Shown: positions 88-63,096 of the stretch, piece after piece
How the letters are laid out: each line of letters opens with the position of its first letter
How positions within the stretch are numbered: position 1 is the first letter of the stretch
IMG/VR virus record: IMGVR_UViG_3300027754_000045
Span: 1-64,000 of that record
Source of the DNA: a virus
Length of the DNA: 64,000 nucleotides
Strand: one strand, 5' to 3'
The notes under the pieces: model-generated
The model's input: only the letters and a program-made list of their open reading frames with translations
What the model was told of the DNA's origin: nothing
The model's database searches: none
Position numbers and translations under genes: made by a program

Positions 88-660
88 GTGCTATCCTTTA
101 TCCAATACCTCGCAGAAGCTAAAACTGCAATGGAGCGCATAGAGAGTCGTGCCCTGGCAAGAATGCGTAGACAACCTGCTCCAGCCGAGTCTCCTCTGGC
201 TTCTTTGCGCACACAATCACCTACACAATGGGGAACACACCCAGGAACCAAGTATTGGTATCACCCAGACACTCAGAAACTAGTACCTGTTGGAACCGAT
301 AATTATATCGGAATACACGCAGAAACTGTATCAGAGAACCCTGGTATATTTGGTGTTAAAAAGTCTAGCTCTAAAAATCCCATTCACGCCGCCATACAGA
401 ATGGCTGGGTGCGACTAGACTCCAGAGGATCAGGACTAACCCTGCAAGGAACTCAAACGCAATCTCATAAAGTGATAAGGGATCACTATGCAGCCACTGC
501 AGGAAAAATTCCAAAGTATTATGTGGATCATTTCACCAAAGACCAAGCATCACACAGCGGCATGTTGGCAGGTGCCGAACAGATTCAGCACTACGTTGAT
601 CATGCTGGCACTCCTCCCATGGGAGCAGGCTGGCGACACCAAACAGACGAACTGAACTAA
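88..660 (+). CDS. Candidate internal head protein with capsid-targeting leader (190 aa)
   Basis: The function of the body is unknown. Residues 1-11 (MLSFIQYLAEA) match the T4 internal-protein capsid-targeting sequence MKTYQEFIAEA in length, aromatic positions and the E10/A11 cut site. LAE|A fits the [LI]xE|[AG] rule of prohead protease gp21. The start is GTG, chosen because it creates this leader and lies 4 nt after a late promoter box. The middle, around residues 55-110, has a Tyr/His/Gly-rich section followed by a GWVR motif; no catalytic pattern was recognised. The base composition is visibly richer in G+C than genes after 2.1 kb, hinting at a different history. It is the first of a run of leader-bearing genes. 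That it is a packaged cargo protein is inference. Confidence 0.75.
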   Translation: MLSFIQYLAEAKTAMERIESRALARMRRQPAPAESPLASLRTQSPTQWGTHPGTKYWYHPDTQKLVPVGTDNYIGIHAETVSENPGIFGVKKSSSKNPIHAAIQNGWVRLDSRGSGLTLQGTQTQSHKVIRDHYAATAGKIPKYYVDHFTKDQASHSGMLAGAEQIQHYVDHAGTPPMGAGWRHQTDELN

Positions 661-675
661 TTCCGATAATATTTT

Positions 676-683
676 TATAAATA
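676..683 (+). promoter_or_regulatory. Late promoter box TATAAATA
   Basis: Exact match to the T4 late element, ending 4 nt before the ATG at 688. The spacing is the same as for the gene at 88. Confidence 0.75.
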
Positions 684-687
684 CGGT

Positions 688-1152
688 ATGCTATCCTTTC
701 TTCAGTACTTGACAGAAATACTGACTCCTCCCGAACAAGTTCCCCTGACGCACCCCGACACTGATTATTTTGAGAGTGACCACGCCAGCTATTTCAATCA
801 AGACCAAAGAGTAAGAACCAACATGCTTCGTTCAGCAACAGAACCCAGCTCTGCCTGGGTGGATTTCGCTGTGAAGGGCTTGACGAAAAAACCAACCAGA
901 CGCTCCGCACTAGGTGCCGTATCAAATCCAGCCACTATTACTCCTGCTTCCATGCAAGCCATGAACACTGTGCTGGGGCATGTGAAGCATTACCTGGACA
1001 CTAATGCAGCCGCAGGCTCTCCCATTAAAACACTGCAGTACCACACCGACGACGACGAACTTGGCGCAAGAAAACATTCCATCTATCAGAGAATGGCAAA
1101 AAAACTTGGCGTAAACACAGAGCGTGTCAGCACAATAGATCGCATGATTTAA
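688..1152 (+). CDS. Candidate internal head protein with capsid-targeting leader (154 aa)
   Basis: The protein opens with MLSFLQYLTE, nearly identical to the leader of the preceding gene, with Glu at position 10. Residue 11 is Ile rather than Ala/Gly, so cleavage there would be non-canonical. The C-terminal part (about residues 105-150) has an Asp-rich stretch (TDDDE) followed by a basic helix-like region (ARKHSIYQRMAKKLG), a layout I associate with a conserved T4-like phage family of unknown function. The gene is separated from its neighbours by short gaps, each carrying its own late promoter box, so each cargo gene appears to be transcribed separately. Biochemical function is not assigned. 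Confidence 0.72.
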   Translation: MLSFLQYLTEILTPPEQVPLTHPDTDYFESDHASYFNQDQRVRTNMLRSATEPSSAWVDFAVKGLTKKPTRRSALGAVSNPATITPASMQAMNTVLGHVKHYLDTNAAAGSPIKTLQYHTDDDELGARKHSIYQRMAKKLGVNTERVSTIDRMI

Positions 1153-1162
1153 ATAATATTAT

Positions 1163-1170
1163 TATAAATA
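1163..1170 (+). promoter_or_regulatory. Late promoter box TATAAATA
   Basis: Exact late element ending 7 nt before the ATG at 1178. The predicted leader would be 0-2 nt. Confidence 0.72.
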
Positions 1171-1177
1171 CAGTACA

Positions 1178-2107
1178 ATGAAGCCTTTTATTGAATATCT
1201 ACGAGAAGATGACCTCACACTAGAGTATCACGACACTCTGAATCCCAAAATTTGGGACGGAGACCAGCTAAAACCAGAAGTTCAGGCTAAATTGCTCCAG
1301 ATTGCCAAGAAATGGGCAGTTTTCGCCAAGATTCCAGACTTTGCGGTCACAGACATCATCCTGGTTGGTGGCAATGCGAACTACAACTGGACAAAATTCT
1401 CGGATCTTGACCTGCATGTCGTGGTGAATCGTGAAGATCTCGCTGATTGTCCTGATTTATTAGACGATTATCTGCAAAATAAAAAACAATTATGGGCCCT
1501 AGTGCACGACATCACCGTTTACGGTCACGACGTGGAGCTTTACGCTCAAGACAAGCAGACTGCTTACCCGAAAAAGCAGGGAGTCTACAGCATCAAGGAT
1601 AAAAACTGGATTGTGCAGCCAAAACATGAGGATGTGGACTTTCGTGGACCCGCTTTACTAGCAAAAGTGAAGCAGTACACGGAAAGAATCGACACCCTGA
1701 TCTCTACCAATGCCGAAGACGAGAGTTTTTCCAAATTAAAAGAAAAATTTAAAAATATGCGCTCCTCAGGCTTGAAAAAAATCGGGGAATTCTCTATGGA
1801 GAATTTAATTTTTAAAGAATTACGAAATCGTGGAGTAATTGACCGAATGACCCAGTATTTACAGTCACGACAAGACGAAAAACTGAGTCTGACCGAGAAT
1901 TATCCGTTTCAAATTCAGATTCACAAAAAAGACGGCAACAAATTAGTTGATGTGATGCAGTTAAACAGCGAAACCAAGTATAAAGCAATGTCCGAAGGAC
2001 TTCGCAGCATGCAATCCATTAAAAGAGAGTACCCGAATGTTGGAGAACATCACTTTTCTGTGAGATATCCGCACGACACGGATTGGATTGCTCCATCTTC
2101 AGAATAA
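1178..2107 (+). CDS. Nucleotidyltransferase-fold protein with capsid-targeting leader (309 aa)
   Basis: After the leader MKPFIEYLRE (E10) comes a nucleotidyltransferase-like domain. It has Gly-Gly at residues 64-65, the SDLDLH metal-binding pair at 75-80 and a third acidic position in DVELYAQD at about 119-125. This is the classic GG/GS-x(n)-DxD plus third-carboxylate layout of the Pol-beta/MNT superfamily. The region around 140-155 (VYSI...NW) and the C-terminal part (about 235-305) have no match I recognise. The leader is followed by DD, so gp21 cleavage directly after E10 would be non-canonical. With the leader and late promoter, the simplest inference is an enzyme packed in the head and delivered at infection, perhaps modifying a host nucleotide, RNA or protein. 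The substrate is unknown. Confidence 0.8.
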   Translation: MKPFIEYLREDDLTLEYHDTLNPKIWDGDQLKPEVQAKLLQIAKKWAVFAKIPDFAVTDIILVGGNANYNWTKFSDLDLHVVVNREDLADCPDLLDDYLQNKKQLWALVHDITVYGHDVELYAQDKQTAYPKKQGVYSIKDKNWIVQPKHEDVDFRGPALLAKVKQYTERIDTLISTNAEDESFSKLKEKFKNMRSSGLKKIGEFSMENLIFKELRNRGVIDRMTQYLQSRQDEKLSLTENYPFQIQIHKKDGNKLVDVMQLNSETKYKAMSEGLRSMQSIKREYPNVGEHHFSVRYPHDTDWIAPSSE

Positions 2108-2108
2108 T

Positions 2109-2116
2109 ACTAAATA
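2109..2116 (+). promoter_or_regulatory. Possible variant late promoter (ACTAAATA)
   Basis: A degenerate form of the late box lies 16 nt before the ATG at 2133, with an AAGGAA ribosome site in between. Weak match. Confidence 0.35.
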
Positions 2117-2132
2117 GAATAAAGGAAATTAT

Positions 2133-3695
2133 ATGAACCCGCTCCACCGATCTTTTATTCAACGTGCTGTTACTAAAAATAAACAATTAAAAGAAGCGGT
2201 TAAGTATGCTGCCACCACTAATCCTAGATTAGTTTCTCCTCGAATAGTGCCAGGTGCACCAAACTACGGAGCCAATAGAAATACTATGGTTGGTCTAGAG
2301 CATAGTTCTGCATTAGACCCAACCCTTATGCCAAGGACTGCCAAGCTTCTTGGAAGTTTAGATATGGCTGGTCCAGAAAAATCACAACCAAAAGATCCAA
2401 AAGAATTAATTGGCATGGTTCAGGGTCGCATGCAAGATAACCTTAACTTTACTTTAAATAGACACAGAGAAGAAAGTCTTAATAAAGAAATACACGAAAG
2501 AAGTCCACAGTGGTATTCTTCTGCTTCTAAAATGAATAAGGGTTTTGCAAAAAATGAAGGAGTCAGAGAAGATACTGCTCACGCTGTAACTGCTGCATTA
2601 TCTCCACAGACTCCATGGCCCACAAATGCATCAATGTCGGAAAGAATAATTCACACATACAAACAAAAAAGACATCTTCCTTTTTCTCCAGAAATGGGTA
2701 GTTTTGTTGATAAAATTACAGCAATGTCTACGGTGGATGGAAAAATGTCAGACCTACAACGACACATGTCAGAAATAAAAGGAAAGGGGTACAACGAACT
2801 TCCAACACTAGAACATAAAGCTGCGTGGATTCGTGCATACGACGAAGCGCACCATAGTCAAGCCTATAGAGAGCCTTTGCCAGACGGAGGATTTTCTAAA
2901 GATTTCATGAAAAATCAAGACGGAAAAAACACAAAAATGCAGTGGGGAAATCCATCAAATATTGCTAAAGCTTTATCTGTATTAGAATCTGAAGATAAAA
3001 TGAAATCAGATAAATCTCATACCGAAGATCATCACCTTGGAGTTATAAGTACTGCAGTTGGCGAAAATCCTAAAGTTCGTAGTTTTTATAATAACATGTC
3101 ACAGCCTGACGCTCCTCCAACAGCTGCTGGAGAAATGCCAGACGTTACTGCAGACATTCACACTAGTGCCGATGCATACGGTAGAGCAGACCTAACTTCC
3201 ATGTTACACACAAATAAAAAAATAAAAAGTGAAAGACCAGAATTTTCTAGAGATTTTGGTAAAATGGTTATGAGTGGTGCTCCTTCAAGTAAACAGTCTG
3301 GAAGTGTTGGACTGTATCCAGTTGTGGCTCAGGCAGTAACCAATGTAGGAAAACAAAGAGATCTGCGTGGAAGTCAAACACAATCTTTGGGTTGGGTTCC
3401 TAGAAAATTAGACAGCGAAGCAGTTCAAGCAAATCCTGCGGCAAGTAAACAAGTTCGTGATATGCATACCGCTATGAGTACTGGAGAATTGTCTCATCCA
3501 CAATTCTTAAAACAATACGGTAAGTTAATTGATACCTTACCAGCAAGAAAGCTTAGTTGGATAGGAACTCCTGCCAATGATATTTCCACTTCGTTTCAGG
3601 ATATCTCAAAAAGTAATAGAGTGATAACAGAACACACCAAGTGGATCACTAACTGGGTGAGTAGTCGATTACGACAAAAATATTTAATTAATTAG
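2133..3695 (+). CDS. Phage protein of unknown function, possible processed head protein (520 aa)
   Basis: A hydrophilic protein with no membrane segment. Residues about 150-175 contain a short motif (TAALSPQTPWPTN) resembling an uncharacterised phage family (DUF7178-like, from memory). The N-terminus is basic and helix-like, with LKE|A at residues 19-22, a possible gp21 cleavage site. It lacks the exact 10-residue leader of its neighbours, so membership of the cargo set is only suggested by position. An AAGGAA site precedes the ATG. The gene is more AT-rich than the genes before it. Its end overlaps by 8 bp the end of the convergent gene at 3688-4356, and no terminator lies between them. Confidence 0.7.
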   Translation: MNPLHRSFIQRAVTKNKQLKEAVKYAATTNPRLVSPRIVPGAPNYGANRNTMVGLEHSSALDPTLMPRTAKLLGSLDMAGPEKSQPKDPKELIGMVQGRMQDNLNFTLNRHREESLNKEIHERSPQWYSSASKMNKGFAKNEGVREDTAHAVTAALSPQTPWPTNASMSERIIHTYKQKRHLPFSPEMGSFVDKITAMSTVDGKMSDLQRHMSEIKGKGYNELPTLEHKAAWIRAYDEAHHSQAYREPLPDGGFSKDFMKNQDGKNTKMQWGNPSNIAKALSVLESEDKMKSDKSHTEDHHLGVISTAVGENPKVRSFYNNMSQPDAPPTAAGEMPDVTADIHTSADAYGRADLTSMLHTNKKIKSERPEFSRDFGKMVMSGAPSSKQSGSVGLYPVVAQAVTNVGKQRDLRGSQTQSLGWVPRKLDSEAVQANPAASKQVRDMHTAMSTGELSHPQFLKQYGKLIDTLPARKLSWIGTPANDISTSFQDISKSNRVITEHTKWITNWVSSRLRQKYLIN

Positions 3696-4356
3696 TTTTG
3701 TATGCGGCATCAATTGCTTCGTAGTACTTAGGATCTTCTTGGCGAGACGCACCACGCCAAGACTGAACAAATCTTTCACGATCTTGAGGCGACATTTCCT
3801 TGGTGTCATCAATCTTTAGTTCACGCATCTTTCCACGCATCACACCCGTTGCCATTTGTTGGTATGGTTTATGATATTTTTCATCACTCAGAGTGCCGCA
3901 ACCACCAGGACCACAAGCGTCTCCCACCTTTACATTACCTAACATGCTCTTTCCTTGGGCCACATACTGATTCACGTAATCCTCTTGTCCTTTAAACAGA
4001 TCAGGCTGTGTTCGCATAAAACCAGCAGCAGTTGATTTGGTAATTTGAACTGGACCATAGGCAGTGGATTTTCCTGATCTCTCTTTTGTTCTGATATATT
4101 GTCCTGCATTATAGTCTAAAGCATTTCCAATATCAGTTCCTCTGTGTTCTGCACCAACAAGAGCTTTATATAATTTTGTATTTTGTTCTCCACCAAAATG
4201 AGCATACGGATCCACTACTGGAGCAGCAGCTTGAGTTACGGGTGCGGCTGGTGCCTGTATAGGAGCGGTTTGTGGGCTTCCTGCCATCATGCCAGCAGCT
4301 AAAGCCATCGGAGCCAACAGGGAACCTTCTTGAATATATTCAATAAATGTTTTCAT
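3688..4356 (-). CDS. Transglycosylase/lysozyme-like head protein with capsid-targeting leader (222 aa)
   Basis: The leader MKTFIEYIQE|G is the best local match to the T4 targeting sequence: same length, MKT start, E10, and Gly at the cut. It is followed by a hydrophobic stretch (about 13-26) and an Ala/Pro linker (about 30-50). Residues 60-180 look lysozyme-like: a candidate catalytic Glu in GAEHRG (E70) and the STAYGPVQIT motif (97-106), like the Gly-x-x-Gln-Ile segment of lytic transglycosylases. A Cys pair flanks Gly-Pro at about 148-153. Family knowledge suggests peptidoglycan cleavage. Packaging in the head rather than the tail is inferred from the leader. The gene is divergent from the peptidase gene at 4389, sharing a 32-bp gap. 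Confidence 0.72.
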   Translation of the reverse strand: MKTFIEYIQEGSLLAPMALAAGMMAGSPQTAPIQAPAAPVTQAAAPVVDPYAHFGGEQNTKLYKALVGAEHRGTDIGNALDYNAGQYIRTKERSGKSTAYGPVQITKSTAAGFMRTQPDLFKGQEDYVNQYVAQGKSMLGNVKVGDACGPGGCGTLSDEKYHKPYQQMATGVMRGKMRELKIDDTKEMSPQDRERFVQSWRGASRQEDPKYYEAIDAAYKTN

Positions 4357-4373
4357 ATAAAGTATATATTTAA

Positions 4374-4381
4374 CATAAATA
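4374..4381 (+). promoter_or_regulatory. Late promoter box CATAAATA
   Basis: One mismatch to TATAAATA, ending 7 nt before the ATG at 4389. In the same 32-bp gap the minus strand carries a weaker TTAAATAT (4373-4366) for the divergent gene, so the gap may hold back-to-back late promoters. Confidence 0.55.
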
Positions 4382-4388
4382 ATGATGT

Positions 4389-4760
4389 ATGAAACGATTC
4401 ACCCAATACCTGACCGAGAATGCTTTGCTGGAATCTCATATTCAAAGCTTTATTGATTTTGCCAGCAATCACCTTGGTCTGAAAGATAAGCCAAAAGTTG
4501 ACTTGGTTCATGAGAGAGACAACACTATGACTACTGCTAGTTACTGCCCAGAGACTAAAATGGTAAAAGTATACGCAAAGGGTCGAGCTAGTTTTGATGT
4601 TTGTCGCAGTATTGCCCACGAACTGGTTCATGCCGACCAGCAAGAAAAAGGCGAATACTTGGACGGTGAAACTGGTTCGGATTGTGAGAATCATGCCAAC
4701 TCCATGGCTGGTCAAATTGTTCGTTTGTACGGTAAACAAAATCCAGACTTCTACGAGTAA
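4389..4760 (+). CDS. HExxH zinc metallopeptidase-like protein with capsid-targeting leader (123 aa)
   Basis: The protein opens with MKRFTQYLTE (E10), another copy of the cargo leader, here followed by Asn. The body carries the zinc-binding helix HELVH at 77-81 and a downstream GSDCENHANSMAG segment (about 96-108), whose Glu-100 could be the third ligand, as in gluzincin-type peptidases. The small, single-domain architecture is like short metallopeptidase-like proteins often found in T4-like aquatic phages. The leader and late promoter imply head packaging and release into the host on injection, or a role in head maturation. The target is unknown. The peptidase motif is clear; the delivery role is inference. 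Confidence 0.82.
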   Translation: MKRFTQYLTENALLESHIQSFIDFASNHLGLKDKPKVDLVHERDNTMTTASYCPETKMVKVYAKGRASFDVCRSIAHELVHADQQEKGEYLDGETGSDCENHANSMAGQIVRLYGKQNPDFYE

Positions 4761-26623: not shown

Positions 26624-27388
26624 ATGACAACAATGCAATTTCCTTCAACAAATGATCCGTTTTTTCCAGATATTCCTGTTTGGATGAACTTCTATGCTGC
26701 CAATTATAGCACATTTTCTCGAAACAGGACGAGAAATTATATTATTTCTCATAACTATCTTCAAATTTCAATACCGTATCCGCAAGATCACACAACCATG
26801 AATAATCAATTTTATGGAAAAGCTGGCTCCAAAAACAACAGAGTTATAGAAAAGGGGTTTGCGGGAGTAGGCCAAATGATAAACGCTCAATTTAATAAAT
26901 TCATCGAAACTAGCAATAGTTTTTTAGAGGGTGGTAATATATTAACATTTGATCATTATGAGACACAATTAGAACCAGGAGCCAGAAGAACTCATAAATT
27001 TAATATTCTTATGATTGCTAAAAACAGAGAACAAGCAAAACAAATAAACGATATAGCATTAGCTTTTCAAACAAACGTATTCCCAATATCAAATACTAGT
27101 TCTATATTAACAATGAGACACCCTCCTTTGTGGTGTTTTAAGGCTTTAGTTATTGGTAATAGTAATTTTCAAACTAATTCTTATTGGGATGGTCAGCCTC
27201 TAGTTTCTGTTTTGGCTAGTGCAGACATCAACAGATCTCCGATTTTAAACACAGCATTTATTACTTCTGATTTTAAGCCAATTGCGGTAAACATAAAACT
27301 TTCGTTTATTGAGCTTGAACCAGCATTACAAGTTGGTGATGGAAGCCTACGAATTTGGAGTAGATCAGAAAGATTAGACGCAAGTTAA
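26624..27388 (+). CDS. 48: Baseplate tail-tube cap protein gp48-like (254 aa)
   Basis: The order of segments (FFPDIPVWMNFYAANYSTF at the start, then ISIPYP, LEPGARRTHKFNILMIAKNREQAKQINDIALAFQTNVFP, later MRHPPLWCFKALVIG, and FIELEPA at the end) matches gp48/gp54-type proteins of T4-like phages that cap the baseplate and start the tail tube. It is shorter than T4 gp48 (364 aa), as in other aquatic relatives. Opens the large plus-strand baseplate operon; overlaps gp53 by 1 bp (TAATG). Confidence 0.8.
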   Translation: MTTMQFPSTNDPFFPDIPVWMNFYAANYSTFSRNRTRNYIISHNYLQISIPYPQDHTTMNNQFYGKAGSKNNRVIEKGFAGVGQMINAQFNKFIETSNSFLEGGNILTFDHYETQLEPGARRTHKFNILMIAKNREQAKQINDIALAFQTNVFPISNTSSILTMRHPPLWCFKALVIGNSNFQTNSYWDGQPLVSVLASADINRSPILNTAFITSDFKPIAVNIKLSFIELEPALQVGDGSLRIWSRSERLDAS

Positions 27389-29247
27389 TGTTTGACTTAT
27401 TTCCAAAAATTAATTACAATTTTGGAGGGTTTACTCTTTCATTGACAAATATTTTTAGTAGTATTAATCTAGAATTAGATAGTCCTCTTGAAATATTTAC
27501 AAAATACATAACTCCTGGCGAACGACCAGATATTATATCTAATAATTTATACAATAAGTCTAGTCTTTATTGGTCTGTGTTTTTAATCAACAATATTAAA
27601 AATCCATTATCAGATTGGTCTAAAAATCAAATTAGCCATGATACACAAATAGAAACAAAGTATAGTGGTTGGGAATATCAATTTGCTAATACGTCGCCTT
27701 TTATTCCAGGAAATACTTTTAATTTTAATATTAATAAAACGAATTCATATACAGGAGTAAATTTTGATGAAATTCTAGAAGGCGATTTAATCATATACGA
27801 GTCTGGGGTTGGATCGTATTCTGTTCAATGTATTGGTTCTGGTGGTTTTACTAGTGATTTTTCCCTTTGTACTAGTCCACAATACGGTCAAAGTAATATT
27901 CCAGACAATTTTGACGATCAGAATTCTGTTGTTCAAACTACGTGTGGTGAATATTTTACTGCGTGTCTTACCTCTGAAGGCAGAATACGAGTATGGGGAA
28001 ACTTTAATACAACTAGTTCTGATCTAACCAAAACTGAAAATATTTGGAAATCTTCCTCGAATGGTTATACTTTTATTCACGGTACTGGAAACGATCTTTT
28101 GGCTATAAAAACAGACGGAAGTATTGTCTGTTATGGCGGATGTACAGCTTTTAATACATTTCAGGTTAGTAGTGGTGGTCCTTACAAAAAAATTGCTTGG
28201 GCTACTAATGGTATTTGTGGTGGAGTTGCTATTACTACTACTGGTGCAACCAAACATTTTGGGTTTACTGGATTTCAAGCAGATATGGGTGCTACGTTTT
28301 CTCATATTGCTTGTGGATCTAATTTTTGTTCAGGAATAAAGGGAAGTAACAAACAAGTAGTAGTATGGAAAGGAAATTTAGGAATAACATTATGTACTAG
28401 TGGTATTACTGCTGGAGGTATTAATGTTTCTGGATTTACTTGTAGTAATATTGCAGCAGGAGATAATCATATAGTAGTATTAAAGGGAGGTAATAACATG
28501 GGAGTAACCTCTTGGGGTGATAATAGTTATGGTCAATGTAATGTTTTTGAATTTGCTAATACTCCTACCCTAATATCTGCTGGTTCTAAACATACTGCAG
28601 CAATTTACACAGACAAAATACAATTTTTAGGCAGTATTGCAACATATAATCAGACTAATGGATGCACTGGCAATCAAAGCAACGTAAACGTTAACGGAAA
28701 GTCTATATCTGGAGAATTTAATAACATATCTTCTGGTAAAGAACATGTATGTTTACAAAAATATGGAACAAACAAAAAATATATTGGTGTCATATCTTCT
28801 GTTGATAGCATTTATAAACGTATTTTTGTAAAATCATTTCAATTTAGTGATTCAAATTCTATTAGTTTTGATGATCCTTCTGGTGTTGTGGTTTCTATTT
28901 GGCGTTGGAGTGATGCGTCAAATAGATATTTACAAGTAAAATTAATACAAAATCAATTACTAAGTATTCAAAAGTATTTGGATTCTACGCTATACATAAA
29001 CGAAAATGATAATTTATTAGATATTACAAGTAATTCTAATTGGATTAATGTGTATATACCAAATTATCTAAACGGAAACAATAGTAATTTTATTACTGTA
29101 AGAAAACAATTAATGAATGATGATTTTGTAAAAAAACAAAAAATTAATTATTTAACAAAGGACAAAATAGAATTATTAAAAGCACAAATAAGATCTAAAT
29201 TGTTATTAAACAGTAATATTAATATAAAATTAAGTGAATTACAATGA
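27388..29247 (+). CDS. 53: Baseplate wedge protein gp53 with inserted RCC1-like propeller (619 aa)
   Basis: Residues 1-100 are gp53-like: LFPKINYNF, ITPGERPDIISNNLYNKSSLYWSVFLINNIKNPLSDW, the pattern by which gp53 clamps wedges into the baseplate. The C-terminal 140 residues (about 480-619, with VSIWRWSD and helical end) look like the other half of the family. Between them, about 180-470, lie RCC1-type repeats: CGEYFTACLTSEGRIRVWG, GTGNDLLAIKTDGSIVCYGG, AAGDNHIVVLK followed by SWGDNSYGQC, and SAGSKHTAAIY. T4 gp53 is only 196 aa, so a propeller of about 300 residues has been added. Probably displayed on the baseplate rim. Overlaps the next gene by ATGA. Confidence 0.82.
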   Translation: MFDLFPKINYNFGGFTLSLTNIFSSINLELDSPLEIFTKYITPGERPDIISNNLYNKSSLYWSVFLINNIKNPLSDWSKNQISHDTQIETKYSGWEYQFANTSPFIPGNTFNFNINKTNSYTGVNFDEILEGDLIIYESGVGSYSVQCIGSGGFTSDFSLCTSPQYGQSNIPDNFDDQNSVVQTTCGEYFTACLTSEGRIRVWGNFNTTSSDLTKTENIWKSSSNGYTFIHGTGNDLLAIKTDGSIVCYGGCTAFNTFQVSSGGPYKKIAWATNGICGGVAITTTGATKHFGFTGFQADMGATFSHIACGSNFCSGIKGSNKQVVVWKGNLGITLCTSGITAGGINVSGFTCSNIAAGDNHIVVLKGGNNMGVTSWGDNSYGQCNVFEFANTPTLISAGSKHTAAIYTDKIQFLGSIATYNQTNGCTGNQSNVNVNGKSISGEFNNISSGKEHVCLQKYGTNKKYIGVISSVDSIYKRIFVKSFQFSDSNSISFDDPSGVVVSIWRWSDASNRYLQVKLIQNQLLSIQKYLDSTLYINENDNLLDITSNSNWINVYIPNYLNGNNSNFITVRKQLMNDDFVKKQKINYLTKDKIELLKAQIRSKLLLNSNINIKLSELQ

Positions 29248-41821: not shown

Positions 41822-43168
41822 ATGAGTACTATTGGATCTAGTGTTGTTTCTGAATTATCATCAGAAAATTCTTCTGTTGGTTCTACTGGTCCTACTGGTC
41901 CTACTGGTCCTATTGGACCTATTGGTTCTGGTGCAACTGGTGCAACTGGTAATAGCGTTATTGGAATTAGTCTTGTTGATCGTTATATTATAACTACTTT
42001 TTTTGACGGAACTACTTACGGAACTTCAACACAAGCAATAGGTAAAACTGGGGATGGGCTTGTCAAATTAAATTTTTCTAATATTGGAACAGGTAATAGT
42101 TTAGGATATAATATAACAAATAATAAAACACTTGCTATACGACCAATAGTTTTTTTAGAAAACGAAAATTCAAAGTATAGCATAAACTTAAATTCAGAAA
42201 ATAATGCTTATGATATTAATTTAATAACTAATAGTTCTGGTATAACTTTACTTGCTGGAAGTTCATCAAATAAACTATTAACATTCAATTCTACGGGAAA
42301 ACCGCAAACACTAAACAATACATCTGTAAATGAATATGGTGTTAATTTTGTTTCTGCAAATATTTTTGAGTTTGTTCGTGGTGGTGGCTGGACTGGTTCT
42401 ACTGGAGCAATTAATTGTTTTGGAAGTGTTTCTGGTATTACTTGTATTTTAAATCCATGTGTGCCAGAATATGGTAAAATGTATGGTTCAAAATCTCACG
42501 TATATTATACTAATTTTAGAGGAATGACAGCTTCTATAGGAATAATCAACCCCCCAAACGACAAAAGGGTGTATGGATTTGATTTGTTCGTTCGTAATGC
42601 ATTAAATCCTACAAATATTTCTGAAAGGTTTGGTGACAACATTAAATGGTCTTTGAATAGGGCTCCTTGTTTTAGTTTTGGTGGTACTACTTGTGATTTA
42701 AAACTTTCTTTTTTTGGATTAGGAGGTTCTACTTGTTGGTATGGGTCGGCTGTTGCTATTCCAAATTTGAATAATAAAACTTGTCCTGGTCTTTCTTTGT
42801 TTGACTCTAGTTGCTCTGGAGATTCTAATTTTGTAGAAGCAGGAAGTGCTGTTCCTAAAAATATTAACGACATAGGAGCTTGCTGTAGTGTGGATGGTTT
42901 ATGTGTTGAAACTTACGCATCAGAGTGTTCTGGATTTTTCCATGGAGCAGGAACTACTTGCGGTAATATTAATAATTCTATTTGTAATAAAATAGGTGCT
43001 TGTTGTGTTTATATGCCTTCGTATTCTTGTTATGATTACTTAACTTGCACGGAATGTTTGGCTCTTGGTTATGATTCTTCTATTTCAACATTTTTTGGTG
43101 GAAATTTTAGTAATTGTAAAAATGTTAATTGTCTTGAGATAAGCAATAATTATTTTAATTTTTTATAA
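41822..43168 (+). CDS. Collagen-like, cysteine-rich tail fibre protein (448 aa)
   Basis: A short collagen-like tract (STGPTGPTGPIGPIGSGATG, about 21-40) follows an N-terminal helix. The middle is fibrous beta structure. From about 350 two cysteine modules occur: GACCSVDGLC ... C ... C, and GACCVYMPSYSC ... C ... C, each opening with G-x-CC. Such modules may form disulphides once the virion is outside the cell. Four neighbouring genes share this plan. Role is inferred: a fibre or adhesin. Starts 2 nt after the previous stop. Confidence 0.7.
   Translation: MSTIGSSVVSELSSENSSVGSTGPTGPTGPIGPIGSGATGATGNSVIGISLVDRYIITTFFDGTTYGTSTQAIGKTGDGLVKLNFSNIGTGNSLGYNITNNKTLAIRPIVFLENENSKYSINLNSENNAYDINLITNSSGITLLAGSSSNKLLTFNSTGKPQTLNNTSVNEYGVNFVSANIFEFVRGGGWTGSTGAINCFGSVSGITCILNPCVPEYGKMYGSKSHVYYTNFRGMTASIGIINPPNDKRVYGFDLFVRNALNPTNISERFGDNIKWSLNRAPCFSFGGTTCDLKLSFFGLGGSTCWYGSAVAIPNLNNKTCPGLSLFDSSCSGDSNFVEAGSAVPKNINDIGACCSVDGLCVETYASECSGFFHGAGTTCGNINNSICNKIGACCVYMPSYSCYDYLTCTECLALGYDSSISTFFGGNFSNCKNVNCLEISNNYFNFL
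41881..41952 (+). repeat. 9-bp collagen-coding repeats
   Basis: Tandem GGTCCTACT-type units code for Gly-Pro-Thr triplets; similar units occur at about 43235-43300 and, shorter, at 45626-45672. Prone to slippage or recombination between the fibre genes. Confidence 0.85.
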
Positions 43169-43171
43169 ATA
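43164..43171 (+). promoter_or_regulatory. Late promoter box TATAAATA inside the fibre operon
   Basis: An exact late element lies in the last bases of the upstream gene and just after, ending 4 nt before the ATG at 43176. Spacing is identical to the genes at 88 and 688. Confidence 0.7.
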
Positions 43172-43175
43172 TAAT

Positions 43176-45587
43176 ATGAGCAATTTTTATTCTAACAGTA
43201 CATTTAATATTAATTCCTTAGGTTTTGGTTTTGGTGCTACGGGACCAAAAGGACCTACGGGACCAACAGGTCCTACTGGACCTACTGGACCAACAGGCAA
43301 TAGTGGTATAGGATTAAAAAGAATTGATACATGGGTCACTAAAAATAATTCAGATTCAGTTACTATTGTTCTGTCTGACGAAACAAGTATTACTATTAAT
43401 GGTTTGTCTGGAAATTCGTCAGATTTTGATACTAATCTTTTTAATATAATAGGCAGTACTGCAGTTAGGTCATCATCAATAAATATTAATAGTAGTGTTT
43501 CTGGCTCTACTGCTTATTTTACTCCTTTGGCGGGTTTTGGTGAAATATCTCTTAGTAAAATATCAAACGATTTAGTTTTTCACGGAACTACTGCAACATC
43601 TGGTATCACTAATGTTATATTATACTCTAAGGGTAATACTTTAGCAAGTTTAATTGATTCTAGTGGAAATAATACACTATTTAAATATAATATTAATACT
43701 TTTGGTTCTACGACAAATTCTGTTGCAATAGCAAATTTATCTTCGTTTTTATTAAGAACATCTACTACAGGAATAACTAATCATAACGCAACAGCATCTT
43801 TTACTTCTGGAATTACTGGTATAGTTTCTAATTTTACCGATATGTCTGTTTACAACACAACTATTAGTAGTCAGGCTGTTGTGAGTAAACAATTTTATCA
43901 TAGTTCTAATCAAGACGTTAGATCTATTGTTAATTCTGCTGGTGAAGTACAGAACAGCGGAATAACTTCTTTTTTCAATACTATTTTTGCTAATATTTCT
44001 CAAGGAATTTCGTATGGATTTAGAAACTTTGGATCTTGTTTTTATAAAGGATGCAAGTGTTTAGACTACGCAACAAAAGAATATTGTGACACAATTGGCG
44101 GAACATTTTCCTCTTCTTCTCTATGTAGAGATATTGTGGGTAGTAGTCCTAATTCAACTGGTTCTTGTTGCCGAGGAATAACTTGCGTTAATACAACAGA
44201 AGCACAATGTGGTTTTGTTGGTGGTCACTGGGGTGGAAATAATACAAATTGTGCTGGAGCTTTTTGTGGAGGAGAGTTTACTCATATTGCAGCTGGATAT
44301 GATCATGCTGCTGTGGTTTATAAAAGTCCTAGTAATATAAATTATTTAATTGGCTGGGGACGAAATCTTGATGGTCAATGTAAAGGAACAACTTCCACTA
44401 ACGGAATCATTGTTAGTGAATCTGAAACAGCAATTCAACCACACGTAATAAAATTAAAGGGTCAATTTTTATCTAATATTAAAGGGGAAAGTTTGATATG
44501 CAGCGATTCGAAGACTGCGGTTATTAGTAATGATGGCAACATTATTATGATTGGAGGAAATACCGAATTAAGCCAGGCAAAGCTGAATCCAAACACAACA
44601 TTTGGTAGATCAATATATGGTACGTTAAATAGCAGTGGAACTCCTAATCTAGATCCTGGTTGCGTTAAAATACACGGAATTACAATAACAAATCCTACAC
44701 AAATTTCAATGTGGCACACAACTCATGCATTAATGCCTGATAAAACAGTTCGTACTTGGTGTGATCAAGGATATCAAGATGGTGCTTATAATGCAAGCAC
44801 TATGTTTGGTGTTAGTGGTAGAGGAGGAGGGCCTAATGGATTAACTGGATTTACTGCAGATTATGTTTATGCTGGACCATATGCAACATATTTTGCTCAC
44901 CAAAATGGAATGACGCATACTACGGTTTTTAACGAAACACCAGCGCAGTGCGATGGAAACCGCTTTGCCGTTGCTGGAGATAGATTGCAAACAAAAACTT
45001 GTGCAGGAGATGTTGCTGCTCCAGCATTTTATTATAATAGCGTTAATAATTTTCCTGGTTTATCTTTCGGGATACCTCTAGAATATTTTGGTAATAGTAA
45101 TGACTTGAAAGGAGTATTCAGAGTAAAACAATTTGTTGCTTCACGATCACAAATAGTTTGGTTGTCTTATGATCCTAGTGGTTCAACGAATTGGACTTAC
45201 ATCCAGAATCACCAAAATAAACCAGGAATGAAAGGACATTGTGGAGATGGGCGTGATGAGTCAGACAACGGAATAACATATGATGGAGATATTGCTTTTA
45301 CAAAATTAGCATCAGGAGCTTATCACATAATTGCCTTAAAGAATGACGGAAATATAATAGTATATGGAGAAAATGATTTGGGGGAATCTACTATTTCAGA
45401 TGAAGCGGACGAGGCTTCTAGAATTCGTGGAGTAAAATTTATAGATGTGGCTGCTACAGCTCATAATACATTTGTTCTTGGAGAAGACAGCATAATATAT
45501 GCTTGGGGTGATCCATTAACAAATTTAATTCAGAATGTGCCAAAAATAGAAGATATTCCAGCAATATTTAACAGAAGTCTATCATGA
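43176..45587 (+). CDS. Modular fibre protein: collagen, cysteine and RCC1 modules (803 aa)
   Basis: Order of modules: collagen tract (GPKGPTGPTGPTGPTGPTG, about 24-42); fibrous region; cysteine modules at about 286-365 (GSCFYKGCKC ... GGTF ... C, and GSCCRGITC ... GGHWGG ... C); then RCC1 repeats to the C-terminus (IAAGYDHAAVVYKS ... GWGRNLDGQC, LASGAYHIIALKNDGNIIVYGENDLGES, DVAATAHNTFVLGEDSIIYAWG). RCC1 propellers bind partners on their faces, so this may be the tip or a lateral adhesin. It has its own late promoter box. Overlaps the next gene by ATGA. Confidence 0.75.
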   Translation: MSNFYSNSTFNINSLGFGFGATGPKGPTGPTGPTGPTGPTGNSGIGLKRIDTWVTKNNSDSVTIVLSDETSITINGLSGNSSDFDTNLFNIIGSTAVRSSSININSSVSGSTAYFTPLAGFGEISLSKISNDLVFHGTTATSGITNVILYSKGNTLASLIDSSGNNTLFKYNINTFGSTTNSVAIANLSSFLLRTSTTGITNHNATASFTSGITGIVSNFTDMSVYNTTISSQAVVSKQFYHSSNQDVRSIVNSAGEVQNSGITSFFNTIFANISQGISYGFRNFGSCFYKGCKCLDYATKEYCDTIGGTFSSSSLCRDIVGSSPNSTGSCCRGITCVNTTEAQCGFVGGHWGGNNTNCAGAFCGGEFTHIAAGYDHAAVVYKSPSNINYLIGWGRNLDGQCKGTTSTNGIIVSESETAIQPHVIKLKGQFLSNIKGESLICSDSKTAVISNDGNIIMIGGNTELSQAKLNPNTTFGRSIYGTLNSSGTPNLDPGCVKIHGITITNPTQISMWHTTHALMPDKTVRTWCDQGYQDGAYNASTMFGVSGRGGGPNGLTGFTADYVYAGPYATYFAHQNGMTHTTVFNETPAQCDGNRFAVAGDRLQTKTCAGDVAAPAFYYNSVNNFPGLSFGIPLEYFGNSNDLKGVFRVKQFVASRSQIVWLSYDPSGSTNWTYIQNHQNKPGMKGHCGDGRDESDNGITYDGDIAFTKLASGAYHIIALKNDGNIIVYGENDLGESTISDEADEASRIRGVKFIDVAATAHNTFVLGEDSIIYAWGDPLTNLIQNVPKIEDIPAIFNRSLS

Positions 45588-55185: not shown

Positions 55186-55193
55186 TATAAATA
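55186..55193 (+). promoter_or_regulatory. TATAAATA box immediately before the portal ATG
   Basis: An exact late box ends only 2 nt before the ATG at 55196 and shares bases with the gene's GAGGAT ribosome site. A transcript from it would start inside the portal gene, so it may serve downstream genes or be fortuitous. Confidence 0.4.
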
Positions 55194-55195
55194 TT

Positions 55196-56785
55196 ATGGA
55201 ATTAGAATTATTTGGTTTTACAATAGGCAAAAAAAAGGCACAGGAAAATACTCCTGTAAATCCCGAAGTCATTACTCCCGACAGTTATGATGGTTCTTAT
55301 GTTTTAGAAACTGGTGGAGTTTTTGGAACATTTGCTGATTTTTCTGGAAATGCCAGAGACGAAAATCAATTAATTACTCATTATAGATCTATGGCATTGC
55401 ATCCAGAAGTGGATGCTGCTATTGAGGATATTGTTAATGAGTCTATTGTGCTAGATTTGGACAGAAAACCTATCAAGTTAGATTTAGATAGAGTGAATCT
55501 TTCTGAAGTTATTAAAACTAAAATTTATAGTGAATTCAATCACATATTAAAACTTTTAGATTTTTCAAACAAATCTCATGATATTTTTAGAAGATGGTTT
55601 ATTGATGCCAAGACATTTTATTATAAAAAAATTGATAAAAACGATATTCGAAAAGGTATTATTGAGTTGGTTCCTATTGATCCTGTGAAGATTAAAAAGG
55701 TCAGAAAAGTAGAAAAGGATAAGACTGTTTATGGTGGTGCTGCTCCTTTTTCCCCGATTAAAAGTATTCAAGAATATTATGTTTATACTGACACAGATAA
55801 GGAAGCAAACTTTCCAACAAATCCAACGGGATGGAAAATTGCACCAGATACAATTGCTTATGTTCATTCTGGTATTATTGACTCCACCACAAAACGTGTA
55901 GTTGGTTATTTGCAGAAGGCAGTTCGACCCCTAAATCTTCTTCGGCAGATTGAAGATGCTGTAGCCATCTACAGAATTTCTCGTGCTCCAGAACGACGAG
56001 TATTTTACGTAGACGTTGGTAATTTGCCAAAGCAAAAGGCAGAACAATATCTTCGTGAAATCATGAACCGATATCGTAATAAAACAATTTATGATCCTAG
56101 CACTGGCGAAATCAAAGATGAGCGTAATCATATGAGCATGCTCGAAGATTACTGGATGCCTCGACGTGATGGTGGTCGTGGTACAGAAATCAGCACTCTT
56201 GATGGTGGTCAAAATCTTGGTCAAATGGATGATGTTAATTATCTACTACAAAAGCTTTACCGAGCTCTTGGTGTTCCCCTATCACGCATGATGCCTGATG
56301 GTGGTTTTAATATGGGCAAAAGTGCTGAGATTACTCGTGACGAAGTTAAATTTAATAAATTTGTTGACCGTTTACGACAACGATTTAGCAGTATATTTTT
56401 TGATCTTTTAAAGACTCAAGTAATTCTTAAAGGGTTGATGACTGAAGAAGATTGGAACAGAATTGTTCAAGATATTGGTTTTAAATTTAATAATGATTCT
56501 TATTTTGCTGAACTCAAGAACAACGACATTCTTCGTGAACGTCTAGACATTATTGCTGCTGTGACTCCTTATGTTGGTCGTTTCTTTTCTGCAGAGTATG
56601 TTCGTAAGAATTTCTTGAAACAGACCGATGAGGACATTATTGAAATTGACGCACAGATAAATAGAGAAATGCAGAAACAAATCGAAGCGCAAGAAGCACA
56701 GGCATATCAGCAAATGTTAGCAGGAGAAGAGCCTGGTCAAGAAGAAGAACAACAGCCAGAAGGCGAACAACCACCCCCACAATGA
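55196..56785 (+). CDS. 20: Portal protein gp20 (529 aa)
   Basis: The dodecameric vertex through which DNA enters and leaves. Diagnostic segments: DENQLITHYRSMALHPEVDAAIEDIVNESIV, RRWFIDAKTFYYKKID, LRQIEDAVAIYRISRAPERRVFYVDVGNLPKQKAEQYLREIMNRYRNK, MLEDYWMPRRDGGRGTEISTL, and ALGVPLSRMMPDGGFNMGKSAEITRDEVKFNKFVDRLRQRFS. The C-terminus is acidic and Gln-rich. Length is close to T4 gp20 (524 aa). Overlaps the next gene by ATGA. Confidence 0.97.
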   Translation: MELELFGFTIGKKKAQENTPVNPEVITPDSYDGSYVLETGGVFGTFADFSGNARDENQLITHYRSMALHPEVDAAIEDIVNESIVLDLDRKPIKLDLDRVNLSEVIKTKIYSEFNHILKLLDFSNKSHDIFRRWFIDAKTFYYKKIDKNDIRKGIIELVPIDPVKIKKVRKVEKDKTVYGGAAPFSPIKSIQEYYVYTDTDKEANFPTNPTGWKIAPDTIAYVHSGIIDSTTKRVVGYLQKAVRPLNLLRQIEDAVAIYRISRAPERRVFYVDVGNLPKQKAEQYLREIMNRYRNKTIYDPSTGEIKDERNHMSMLEDYWMPRRDGGRGTEISTLDGGQNLGQMDDVNYLLQKLYRALGVPLSRMMPDGGFNMGKSAEITRDEVKFNKFVDRLRQRFSSIFFDLLKTQVILKGLMTEEDWNRIVQDIGFKFNNDSYFAELKNNDILRERLDIIAAVTPYVGRFFSAEYVRKNFLKQTDEDIIEIDAQINREMQKQIEAQEAQAYQQMLAGEEPGQEEEQQPEGEQPPPQ

Positions 56786-57604: not shown

Positions 57605-58252
57605 ATGAAGCTAATAACCGAAACATCTCAGGACGTTAAATTTCTAACCGAAGCCGCTGATGGTGGAGGAAAGAATTATTTCATTGAAGGTGTCTTTATG
57701 CAATCAGACACACTCAATCGCAACAAGAGAATGTATCCAACTCAAATTCTTATGAATGAAGCTCGTCGTTATGACCGAGAGTATGTTCAAAACAAGAGAG
57801 CATTTGGTGAGTTGAACCATCCAACAAATCCTGTTGTTAATTTGGATCGTGTTTCTCATATAATTCTAGAGTTCAGAAATAGCGGAAAAGATGTTCATGG
57901 TCGTGCAAAAATCATGGGTACTCCGATGGGAGAGATCGTAAAGAGTCTTATCAACGAAGGAGCTAGTCTTGGTGTGTCCACACGAGGAATGGGTTCATTG
58001 AGTCCAAAGAATGGTTACAGCGAAGTATGCAAAGATTTCACTCTTAGTGCAGTGGATATTGTTGCGGATCCTAGTGCTCCTGGTGCGTTTGTAAACGGCA
58101 TCATGGAAGGTAAAGAATGGATTTGGGACAATGGTATTTTGGTTGAACAAGAGATTGAACGATACCACAGAGAACTCAAGAAGACTTCGAGTAGACAATT
58201 AGAGGCAAAGGCAATTAAACTTTTTGAAAATTTTCTAAAACGATTAAAATGA
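57605..58252 (+). CDS. 21: Prohead protease gp21 (215 aa)
   Basis: A serine protease of the herpesvirus-assemblin fold, which cleaves core and shell proteins after [LI]xE. Catalytic His in GELNHP (H72) and Ser in LGVSTRG (S125); TLNRNKRMYP and SAVDIVADPSAPGAF are typical. Its own N-terminus has FLTE|AADG (E16), a likely self-cleavage site. It would process gp22, gp23 (ISE|A), the core proteins and, if the hypothesis is right, the capsid-targeted cargo of the left end. Confidence 0.96.
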   Translation: MKLITETSQDVKFLTEAADGGGKNYFIEGVFMQSDTLNRNKRMYPTQILMNEARRYDREYVQNKRAFGELNHPTNPVVNLDRVSHIILEFRNSGKDVHGRAKIMGTPMGEIVKSLINEGASLGVSTRGMGSLSPKNGYSEVCKDFTLSAVDIVADPSAPGAFVNGIMEGKEWIWDNGILVEQEIERYHRELKKTSSRQLEAKAIKLFENFLKRLK

Positions 58253-60701: not shown

Positions 60702-61619
60702 ATGGAACCACAAAATAACAATGTTGCTCAACCGTCTAATGTATTGATTGATGCTCGTACATACACCAAGGATGCTTCTGGTAAAGGAGTTGTTCTTGGT
60801 ACTGAAGATTTGAGCTGGCTTGAGGGTCGTGCTCAACAGAATCAAGGCAGTCTTCGCCCAATGAGCGGAGGCGTAGAAGCTCCACCTCCACAAGGAGCAC
60901 AGGCTGCAATGAACGAACAACTTCAGAATCTTTTTAGTGGTGAAAATCTTTCCGAAGAATTCATGGGCAAGGCTTCAGTTGTATTTGAAGCTGCTCTGAA
61001 CGAAAGAACCGAAACGATTCGTCAAGCCATGTTGACCGAAGCCAGCACTCTTGTGGAACAAGAAGTCGGCAATGCAGTCAATGAACTTGCCACACGTTTA
61101 GATGAATATCTGAGCTATGCTGTGGATGAGTGGATGAAGGAAAACAAGTTGGCTGTGGAGAGCGGTATTCGCACAGAAATTTCTGAAAGCTTTATCAGTG
61201 GTCTCAAGTCGTTGTTTGAAACACACTACATTGAAGTTCCAGAAAACAAGCATGATATTCTTGAGGATCTGTTCTCAGAGAATCAAGAACTAGAAACCAC
61301 ACTGAACGAGCAGATTCAAACAAACATGAAGTTTAAGCAAGAACTTGACCAAGGTGCTGCACGAGCAGTATTCATGGAAGCAGTTTCGGACTTAACTCAA
61401 GTTGACGCAGAGCGTCTTGCTAGTCTTGCAAACAGTATCAACTACACAAGCCCACAAGAATTTCACAACAAGCTTGTGGTACTTAAGGAAAATTATCTCA
61501 AGGCAGCACCAGTTGTTGCAAGAGAACCAGAAACATTGACCGAACAAAAGATTATTCCACAAGCGGATAGTTTGATGTCTGGTTATGTACATGCACTTGG
61601 TCGTCACTCAAAGAAGTAA
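60702..61619 (+). CDS. 22: Prohead scaffold (core) protein gp22 (305 aa)
   Basis: The main scaffold around which the gp23 shell forms, later digested by gp21. Helical, acidic, with a Gly/Pro-rich N-terminal part and long coiled stretch (about 85-240). Its motifs FSGENLSEEFMGKASVVFEAALNERTETIRQAMLTEA and VDEWMKENKLAVESGIRTEIS are typical of gp22 of T4-likes. LTE|A at residue 113 and FME|A near the end fit the protease rule. Less AT-biased codons, as for gp23. Confidence 0.92.
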   Translation: MEPQNNNVAQPSNVLIDARTYTKDASGKGVVLGTEDLSWLEGRAQQNQGSLRPMSGGVEAPPPQGAQAAMNEQLQNLFSGENLSEEFMGKASVVFEAALNERTETIRQAMLTEASTLVEQEVGNAVNELATRLDEYLSYAVDEWMKENKLAVESGIRTEISESFISGLKSLFETHYIEVPENKHDILEDLFSENQELETTLNEQIQTNMKFKQELDQGAARAVFMEAVSDLTQVDAERLASLANSINYTSPQEFHNKLVVLKENYLKAAPVVAREPETLTEQKIIPQADSLMSGYVHALGRHSKK

Positions 61620-61671: not shown

Positions 61672-63096
61672 ATGGATTTCAATCAGAACTCATCGTACGA
61701 CACTTTACTAGAAAAATGGGACCCCCTTCTCAATCACGAGTCGATCCCTTCAATTCAAGATTCATACAAGAAGAAGGTAACTGCCGTCCTCTTGGAGAAT
61801 CAAGAAGTTGCTTTGCGTCAACAATACATCTCAGAAGCCAACACCATGGGTGGTAATTTTACTACTGGTCAAGTTGGTTCCGCAGGTAATCTTGCTGGTT
61901 ACGATCCAATCCTTATCAGCTTGGTTCGTCGTAGCATGCCAAACTTGATGGCTTATGACATTGCAGGCGTTCAGCCGATGAGTGCTCCTACGGGCCTTAT
62001 CTTTGCAATGCGCAGCCGTTATGACGGTACTACTCTTGGCGGAGAAGCTCTCTTCCAAGAACCATACGCAGCATTCTCTGGTTCAGGTAACGGTGCTACT
62101 GGTGCCGCTTCTGGTGTTACAGGTGCTTGCCAAGGCGTAGATCCTTCTTACGGTGGCACAGGTTCACAAGCTGGTGGTAGTGTACTTCGTGCTGACGGTT
62201 TAACCTTTGGTATTCGCAACGCTTCATTTAACATGGGTGCCTTTAGAGGCATGTTAACGGGAGAAGGCGAATCTCTTGGTGGCTCTGGTGCTAGCAAGGT
62301 TTTCCGAGAAATGGGTTTCAGCATTGAACGTATCGCTGTCGAAGCAAAGACACGTGCTCTCAAGGCAGAATACACAACTGAATTGGCTCAAGACTTGAAG
62401 GCTGTTCACGGCTTAGACGCTGAGAGCGAACTTGCTAATATTCTTAGCACTGAAATTCTCAACGAAATCAATCGTGAATTGATCTACACTCTTTATCGTG
62501 TAGCCAAGACTGGTTGTGGTCAAGGTGATCTTTCTACTGCTGGTGTTTACGATCTCAATACGGATTCAGATGGTCGCTGGAGCGCAGAACGCTTCCGTGG
62601 TCTGATGTTCCAAATTGAACGTGAAGCCAACGTCATTGCAAAGGAAACTCGTCGTGGTAAGGGTAACTTTATTGTTTGCTCTTCAGACGTTGCTTCTGCT
62701 CTTGCAATGGGTGGTTTCCTTAATGTCAGCCCAGCACTAAACGTGCAACTTGAAGTTGATGATACTGGCAATACGTTTGCTGGTATTCTTAACGGCAAGT
62801 TCAAGGTTTACATCGATCCTTATGCCAAGACCAATGCCAACTTCGTAATGGTTGGTTATCGTGGAGCAAGTCCATACGATGCTGGCGTGTTCTACTGCCC
62901 ATACGTTCCTCTCCAAATGGTGAGAGCCGTTGATCAGTCAACATTCCAACCAAAGATTGGATTTAAGACTCGTTACGGTATGGTTCAAAATCCTTTTGCT
63001 GATAATGCAGCGGGTATTGATACTGTTGGTTCAAATCAGTACTATCGTATCTTTGCAGTAAGTAACTTGCATGGTAACACAGGTTTCGGACTTTAA
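61672..63096 (+). CDS. 23: Major capsid protein gp23 (474 aa)
   Basis: HK97-fold shell protein. The N-terminal delta region (1-55) ends at QQYISE|ANTMGG, an IxE|A site like the T4 cleavage that triggers expansion. Then DPILISLVRRSMPNLMAYDIAGVQPMSAPTGLIFAMRSRY, diagnostic for T4-like gp23, EMGFSIERIAVEAKTRALKAEYTTELAQDLKAVHGLDAESELANILSTEI, and a C-terminal YCPYVPLQMVRAVDQSTFQPKIGFKTRYG. Length near T4 gp23 (521 aa). No separate gp24 vertex gene is seen in this window. Confidence 0.98.
   Translation: MDFNQNSSYDTLLEKWDPLLNHESIPSIQDSYKKKVTAVLLENQEVALRQQYISEANTMGGNFTTGQVGSAGNLAGYDPILISLVRRSMPNLMAYDIAGVQPMSAPTGLIFAMRSRYDGTTLGGEALFQEPYAAFSGSGNGATGAASGVTGACQGVDPSYGGTGSQAGGSVLRADGLTFGIRNASFNMGAFRGMLTGEGESLGGSGASKVFREMGFSIERIAVEAKTRALKAEYTTELAQDLKAVHGLDAESELANILSTEILNEINRELIYTLYRVAKTGCGQGDLSTAGVYDLNTDSDGRWSAERFRGLMFQIEREANVIAKETRRGKGNFIVCSSDVASALAMGGFLNVSPALNVQLEVDDTGNTFAGILNGKFKVYIDPYAKTNANFVMVGYRGASPYDAGVFYCPYVPLQMVRAVDQSTFQPKIGFKTRYGMVQNPFADNAAGIDTVGSNQYYRIFAVSNLHGNTGFGL

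Follow-up and report, generated by a model that had tools for sequence, protein, structure and literature searches.

Head-delivered enzymes are known from bacteriophage T4, where Alt, an ADP-ribosyltransferase, is injected into the host, and the leader of head cargo is known from the T4 internal proteins IPI-IPIII, which are restriction inhibitors. In IPIII, targeting depends on residues 4 and 7, and processing on residues 8 and 10 (PMC9026906). Injected Pol-beta nucleotidyltransferases (NTases) have been predicted elsewhere: PMC5512222 describes Pol-beta NTases of polyvalent proteins, mainly from firmicute conjugative elements and as fusions to ArdC-N, as predicted to travel with the mobile element and to modify a host target.

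The open reading frame described here lies at 1178-2107 (+ strand) of a 64,000-nucleotide stretch of viral DNA, referred to below as the window, which forms the first part of a 153,850-base record. Like the T4 cargo proteins, its predicted product starts with a ten-residue leader that has aromatic residues at positions 4 and 7, I/L at 8 and E at 10 (as in IPII/IPIII); late genes and a T4-type gp21/gp22 core are also common to both, and Alt shows that such cargo may be an enzyme. It differs from the T4 cargo in catalytic class, being a predicted Pol-beta NTase where Alt is an ADP-ribosyltransferase and the IPs are restriction inhibitors, and its relatives include multi-cargo fusions with an internal leader. 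The polyvalent-protein NTases (PMC5512222) resemble it in the predicted transfer to a host target, and some relatives of the ORF are joined to a lysozyme or to a metallopeptidase-like domain; the family considered here, however, belongs to phages, has an additional helical domain and is addressed by a T4 leader, and the window ORF is free-standing. The spectinomycin/streptomycin adenylyltransferases AAD(9)/AadA, which are among the best fold matches, likewise place a helical domain after the NTase domain, yet only about 10-17% identity was found in the aligned parts, and it is implausible that a protein carried in a phage head would serve to modify antibiotics. A further comparison is offered by T4-GC190, which we take to be a HIGH-type cytidylyltransferase: it is leader-bearing, annotated as nucleotidyl-transferring and reported in virions of cyanophage S-SM1, and its annotation as a cytidylyltransferase sets it apart from the NTase. 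Among the papers listed by our search of the literature, in which few subscription journals were covered, we found neither a T4-like phage reported to pack a Pol-beta NTase into its head nor cargo polyproteins with an internal leader.

A predicted Pol-beta nucleotidyltransferase with an invariant active site

The ORF encodes 309 amino acids from an ATG start and comprises the leader, a Pol-beta NTase domain, a helical domain and a small C-terminal alpha/beta domain. Its sole strong family match is phrog_36119 (5e-84), to which no function is assigned. The Pfam family NTP_transf_2 matched the window protein with E=4.9e-4 and 20.9 bits, marginally below the cut-off of 21, and was matched by 47/49 relatives at E<=0.1 (best 5.7e-6). 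An NCBIfam search with the window protein gave no match, and the PADLOC candidate PDC-S09 matched 42/49 relatives (best 2.2e-5) and not the window protein.

An initial annotation, made from the letters of the DNA alone, had proposed a Pol-beta/MNT-type active site composed of GG at residues 64-65, SDLDLH at 75-80 and a third carboxylate near residue 120. All three elements are present. The active-site loop (1367-1417; residues 64-80) has the arrangement G64-X11-D76-X-D78, which is the spacing of Pol-beta NTases, followed by H80, and the third carboxylate is E120 (1535-1537), located within HDVELY (117-122) on a strand of the central sheet (117-125). Conservation was assessed in two alignments: A1, consisting of the window protein and 48 of 78 viral loci, and A2, in which the window protein was aligned with 116 loci taken from viral contigs and from assemblies of bacteria and archaea after thinning of near-duplicates. 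G64, S75, D76, D78, H80 and E120 were invariant in both (49/49 and 117/117), so the catalytic carboxylates that the annotation had asked to be checked in homologs are retained throughout; position 65 is G or S and thus not invariant. Further invariant residues in A2 were W144, P148, R195, E204, N209, K213 and R216, the last five of which lie in the four-helix domain (1649-1885; residues 158-236).

Structure prediction, likewise suggested by the initial annotation, returned a Pol-beta NTase fold. The whole-protein model had a mean pLDDT of 82.9, and an AlphaFold model of residues 11-241 built from a deeper alignment reached a pLDDT of 94.0 and a pTM of 0.86. The top Foldseek match was the CD-NTase 6wt9 (E 2.8e-4), the sole match at E<=1e-3, followed by AAD(9), CdnD, CdnG and a minimal NTase. 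Among the 50 VIA-align matches listed, ranks 1-35 were all nucleotidyltransferases by title; the best had a Z of 6.9 with an rmsd of 4.2 over 103 residues, a middling score that by itself proves little, and the earliest unrelated match stood at rank 36 with a Z of 4.7. Because the matches are uniform in class and the catalytic residues are invariant, we regard the superfamily as settled, and a Pol-beta-superfamily fold for the product of ORF 1178-2107 is well supported by the models.

The fold does not settle the substrate, which could be a protein, an RNA or a small molecule, nor whether AMP or another nucleoside monophosphate would be transferred. Antibiotic adenylyltransferases, CD-NTases (Z 5-6.4), MNT antitoxins and RNA-tailing enzymes are only about one to two Z units apart. 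The aminoglycoside adenylyltransferase family PF04439 was matched by 1/49 alignment members, weakly (E=0.041), and is otherwise represented by the fold match alone. Profile searches of the PDB gave weak matches; the best, to the Legionella AMPylating effector DrrA, had E=0.0029 with A1 and weakened to 0.031 with the wider A2, and we draw no conclusion from it. Two more specific identities were considered and rejected. RlaP (PF10127) did not match the window protein at E<=1; T4 NrdC.11 matches RlaP at 4.6e-12, yet is not matched by the profile of the NTase family. Finally, a HEPN/MNT operon was dropped, since the neighbouring ORFs at 88-660, 688-1152 and 2133-3695 showed no HEPN match at E<=1.

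The small alpha/beta domain (1901-2083; residues 242-302) occurs in the nearest relatives only. Searched alone it returned one relative, as though restricted to this lineage; similarities in fold to PurS, PaaB, AcrIF9 and Dmd (Z about 5) seem to reflect a common arrangement.

A leader of the capsid-targeting type

Residues 1-10 of the NTase ORF (1178-1207) read MKPFIEYLRE, in which F4, Y7, L8 and E10 occupy the positions with assigned roles in T4 IPIII; gp21 is predicted to cut after E10. We scanned the start codons of all ORFs of at least 60 amino acids for the pattern M..[FYW]..[FYW][ILV].E. Across the whole record it was found at 6/2257 start codons, and five of these six lie within 88-4760, at 88, 688, 1178 and 4389 on the + strand and at 4356 on the - strand; the sixth is at 118709 (-). 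Inside proteins the leader spacing occurred at 4/42,198 positions, from which 0.016 chance matches are expected in 170 gene starts compared with 5 observed (the greedy gene caller replaces the 4389 gene by an antisense ORF). The leader is thus far above background, bearing out the cargo leader that the initial annotation had placed before the active site.

The four leader-bearing neighbours are a GTG-initiated ORF at 88-660 (+, 190 aa) and an ORF at 688-1152 (+, 154 aa), both without a Pfam match; an ORF at 3688-4356 (-, 222 aa) that appears transglycosylase-like by eye; and an ORF at 4389-4760 (+, 123 aa) that is metallopeptidase-like, with HELVH. A 520-aa ORF at 2133-3695, which matches DUF7178 (6e-14), lies inside this cluster and has no leader.

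Two genomes, scanned with a somewhat broader pattern, served as controls. T4 gave matches at 2/2051 start codons, namely those of ipII and ipIII, and ipI and Alt were missed; of the four cargoes known from T4 (Alt and IPI-III) the rule thereby recovered two, without any further T4 match, and is specific, not complete. In cyanophage S-SM1 the single matching ORF was SSM1_190, which is T4-GC190. This protein is reported in PMC3037559 to be among those detected by mass spectrometry in purified S-SM1 virions, and the possession of the same leader would explain its presence there. The record of S-CREM2 annotates a leader-bearing T4-GC190 homologue as a virion protein. The S-SM1 gene lies at 148256-149419, and the leader was also seen at the start of genes for this cyanophage core cytidylyltransferase at L089:5411-6283, L086:6701-7558 and L191:97-957.

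Late-promoter matches and packaging genes

A match to the T4-type late promoter, TATAAATA, occupies 1163-1170 (+), which leaves 7 nt between it and the start codon of the NTase ORF. The same element stands 4 nt upstream of both the 88-660 and the 688-1152 ORF, and CATAAATA stands 7 nt upstream of the ORF at 4389-4760. Altogether, ATAAATA was found 4-7 nt upstream of 4/6 leader ORFs of the record, compared with 17/170 gene starts overall (leader genes included); it was absent within 60 nt upstream of 4356 (-) and 118709 (-). The window encodes a gp21-type prohead protease (57605-58252, +; Pfam Peptidase_S77, 2e-34), a gp22-type prohead core scaffold (60702-61619, +; T4_CASP, 5e-58) and the gp23 major capsid protein (61672-63096, +; 2e-141), and gp20 and gp17 are encoded in the record along with these three. 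The late-transcription genes gp55 and gp33 are present in the same record and, taken with the promoter match, point to late expression of the NTase ORF.

The proposal of the initial annotation that the enzyme is head cargo gains support from the IPIII-like leader, the late-promoter matches, the presence of gp21, gp22 and gp55, the leader in relatives (see below) and the two control genomes. We consider the predicted head-cargo address of the NTase well supported.

Distribution of the leader among relatives

A tblastn search identified relatives in 45 phage records, among them freshwater cyanophages, Caulobacter phage Cr30, Lak megaphages and Maribacter phages, and a second viral scan confirmed at least 585 relatives among 600 candidate stretches, of which the best 80 were kept. 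The leader starts 30/178 NTase ORFs (G000 included), and 7 more carry it in frame without a start codon; counted as distinct ORFs, 27/150 start with the leader, 6/150 have it in frame and 117/150 are without it. Gene calling in 175 loci placed it at the start of 32/174 NTase genes versus 29/1840 other genes (P=1.5e-19). After removal of near-duplicates and of ORFs that had no ATG or fewer than 60 nt upstream, ATAAATA was found within 60 nt upstream of 19/25 leader-bearing versus 15/97 other NTase genes (P=1.6e-8).

In a tree of 123 rows, a clade of 72 rows holds 23/24 leader rows and 4/5 in-frame rows, the remaining leader row (L006) being placed just outside this clade. None of the 49 rows of the other main branch starts with the leader, and one (L095) has it in frame. 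The address, as read from these sequences, hence occurs in one broad lineage, where leaderless rows are interspersed, and this pattern suggests that it was gained or lost repeatedly. The L095 gene (5986-7146) is found on a 254-kb contig binned as Bacteroidetes; its leader pattern begins three residues in (MKH-LKPYTSFINE), ATAAATA lies upstream, and a phage of Bacteroidetes may be using the same address here.

An intact leader was absent from the NTases of all annotated isolates examined. That of Cr30 is partial (L7, D10), and the N-termini in S-H34, S-N03, S-B68, S-CREM2, S-CRM01, DSL-LC02, DSL-LC03 and Maribacter phage Molly are short or altered. The NTases of S-H34, S-N03, S-B68 and S-CREM2 begin with MK[KR]L[LI]SEL; the LxE-like end is thus retained, and positions 4 and 7 are lost. 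In S-H34, S-B68, S-CREM2 and S-CRM01 the NTase gene lies two genes past a leader-bearing gene that either carries the annotation of the virion cytidylyltransferase or resembles it. Isolate annotations of the NTase are mostly hypothetical, with one aminoglycoside nucleotidyltransferase.

Many relatives, leader-bearing ones included, are situated near hsp20 and DNA polymerase, and replication-gene surroundings were seen for 12/29 leader-bearing relatives outside the window. A scenario in which an early gene was recruited to the head was dropped, as leader-bearing relatives also occupy replication regions. Since most relatives are without the leader, the enzyme is presumably useful without packaging, and on this evidence it appears to be deployed both with and without the address. 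T4 pairs the packaged Alt with the early ModA and ModB, an arrangement that the two forms of the NTase recall.

Fusions and putative cargo polyproteins

The NTase ORF of the window is itself unfused, but in several relatives the domain is part of a larger protein. In the two nearest relatives, L001 and L002 (84% and 83% identical), it forms the final portion of ORFs some 790 aa long, which start with a leader of their own and continue through unlike first domains, repeats of about 26 residues and the stretch IKPF[IL].[FY]L.EE into the NTase. At this internal leader the ATG has become ATT, yet F4, Y/F7, L8 and E10 are kept, and we infer that gp21 would cut there. The number of the roughly 26-aa repeats (DPAVALAALAHKDA...) between the two leaders was seen to vary (L001:3597-5945, L002:3552-5945). 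In L110 (4001-5479) leader and NTase are followed by a phage lysozyme (Pfam 4e-7), and in L093 the NTase is joined to a 38% relative of the metallopeptidase-like ORF at 4389-4760 of the window. Because such fusions occur, and because that in L093 unites the counterparts of two separate leader-bearing window genes, a shared delivery of these proteins can be argued. A leader-NTase with a tail that looks transglycosylase-like by eye was noted at L113:3594-5153. ORFs in L002, L006 and L098 might be read as ADP-ribosyltransferase-like from a motif judged by eye, but no ADP-ribosyltransferase Pfam match was obtained for them.

A more general scheme, which we put forward tentatively and hold to be somewhat doubtful, is that T4-like heads take up shuffled enzyme cassettes, each bearing a leader, that gp21 would separate fused polyproteins at internal leaders within the head, and that the NTase would be an injected counterpart of Alt with a different chemistry.

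Proposed mechanism and alternatives

From the putative leader, the late-promoter match, the intact conserved active site and the packaging and protease machinery, all read from the genes, we consider it probable that the protein is a late Pol-beta NTase that is packaged, trimmed by gp21, delivered with the DNA and active in transferring a nucleoside monophosphate to a host macromolecule. The gene would be expressed late in infection, and its ten-residue T4-type leader would carry the enzyme into the prohead core. Trimming by the gp21 protease after E10 would leave the conserved domain whole, because this domain starts near residue 17. The trimmed enzyme would stay in the head beside the DNA and be ejected with it into the next host, where the D76/D78/E120 site would move a nucleoside monophosphate to a host macromolecule, a protein in the first place and RNA in the second, so that the host may be disarmed or redirected ahead of any phage gene expression. 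Packaging, cleavage, entry, activity and the kind of target are the steps that we infer. A host protein is ranked first because proteins are what the injected Alt of T4 modifies, and the same is predicted for the Pol-beta domains of polyvalent proteins (PMC5512222); RNA and then a defence toxin follow, with nothing to separate the three.

If the packaged enzyme acted on RNA instead, it could extend, repair or block tRNA or mRNA ends at entry, for example undoing an anticodon-nuclease defence. Poly(A)/TUT-type enzymes are among the fold neighbours at similar Z, the helical domain has the invariant K213 and R216, and the median pI of the leader-bearing group (7.97) is above that of the family (6.26); the window protein, however, has a pI of 6.0 and falls outside RlaP, the Pol-beta family known for RNA repair in phages, and this reading strikes us as rather unlikely. 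We also think it unlikely that the protein is an MNT-like neutraliser which, on entry, would AMPylate a toxin of the host's defences, for instance a HEPN RNase, in a counter-defence comparable to that of T4 IPI-III against GmrSD. MNT antitoxins are among the fold matches (Z 5.8 and Z 5.6) and T4 IP1-3 are all anti-restriction proteins (PMC12373910), but fold similarity fails to separate MNT from other NTases, and with no HEPN gene beside the NTase ORF the toxin would have to be the host's.

The remaining alternatives concern packaging and catalysis themselves. An ordinary infection-time enzyme whose leader is a chance or relict N-terminus would fit the relatives that have no leader and lie close to DNA polymerase, UvsX and primase, the replication-gene location of many relatives, which is associated with early expression, and S-H34 and similar isolates lacking positions 4 and 7. 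It fits poorly with a leader that exceeds background in the window and in relatives, is accompanied by a late-promoter match and is kept as an internal linker after loss of the ATG, and is in our estimation quite improbable. Some T4 core proteins have no enzymatic role, and the NTase might similarly be packaged yet idle, serving as core filler or as a DNA-condensing protein; given catalytic residues that are invariant in 117/117 sequences, leader or not, this seems very improbable indeed.

Should the proposed delivery of an active NTase hold true, time-zero host modification by T4-like phages would exceed ADP-ribosylation, the head carrying a further chemistry that acts post-translationally or on RNA. 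With the leader as a simple rule, injected proteins could be read from the genomes of phages other than coliphages, and the orphan family phrog_36119 would become testable in a defined way.

Late-gene signals elsewhere in the record

In several late genes, including that of the portal, TATAAATA ends 2-7 nt before the ATG and no Shine-Dalgarno sequence is visible. Such short-spaced sites were noted at 676-690, 1163-1180, 43164-43178 and 55186-55198 of the window and at 97434, 98714 and 132167 of the record, as if the corresponding late mRNAs were leaderless transcripts. Two ORFs among the tail/fibre genes, at 27388-29247 and 43176-45587, contain RCC1-like repeats as judged by eye.
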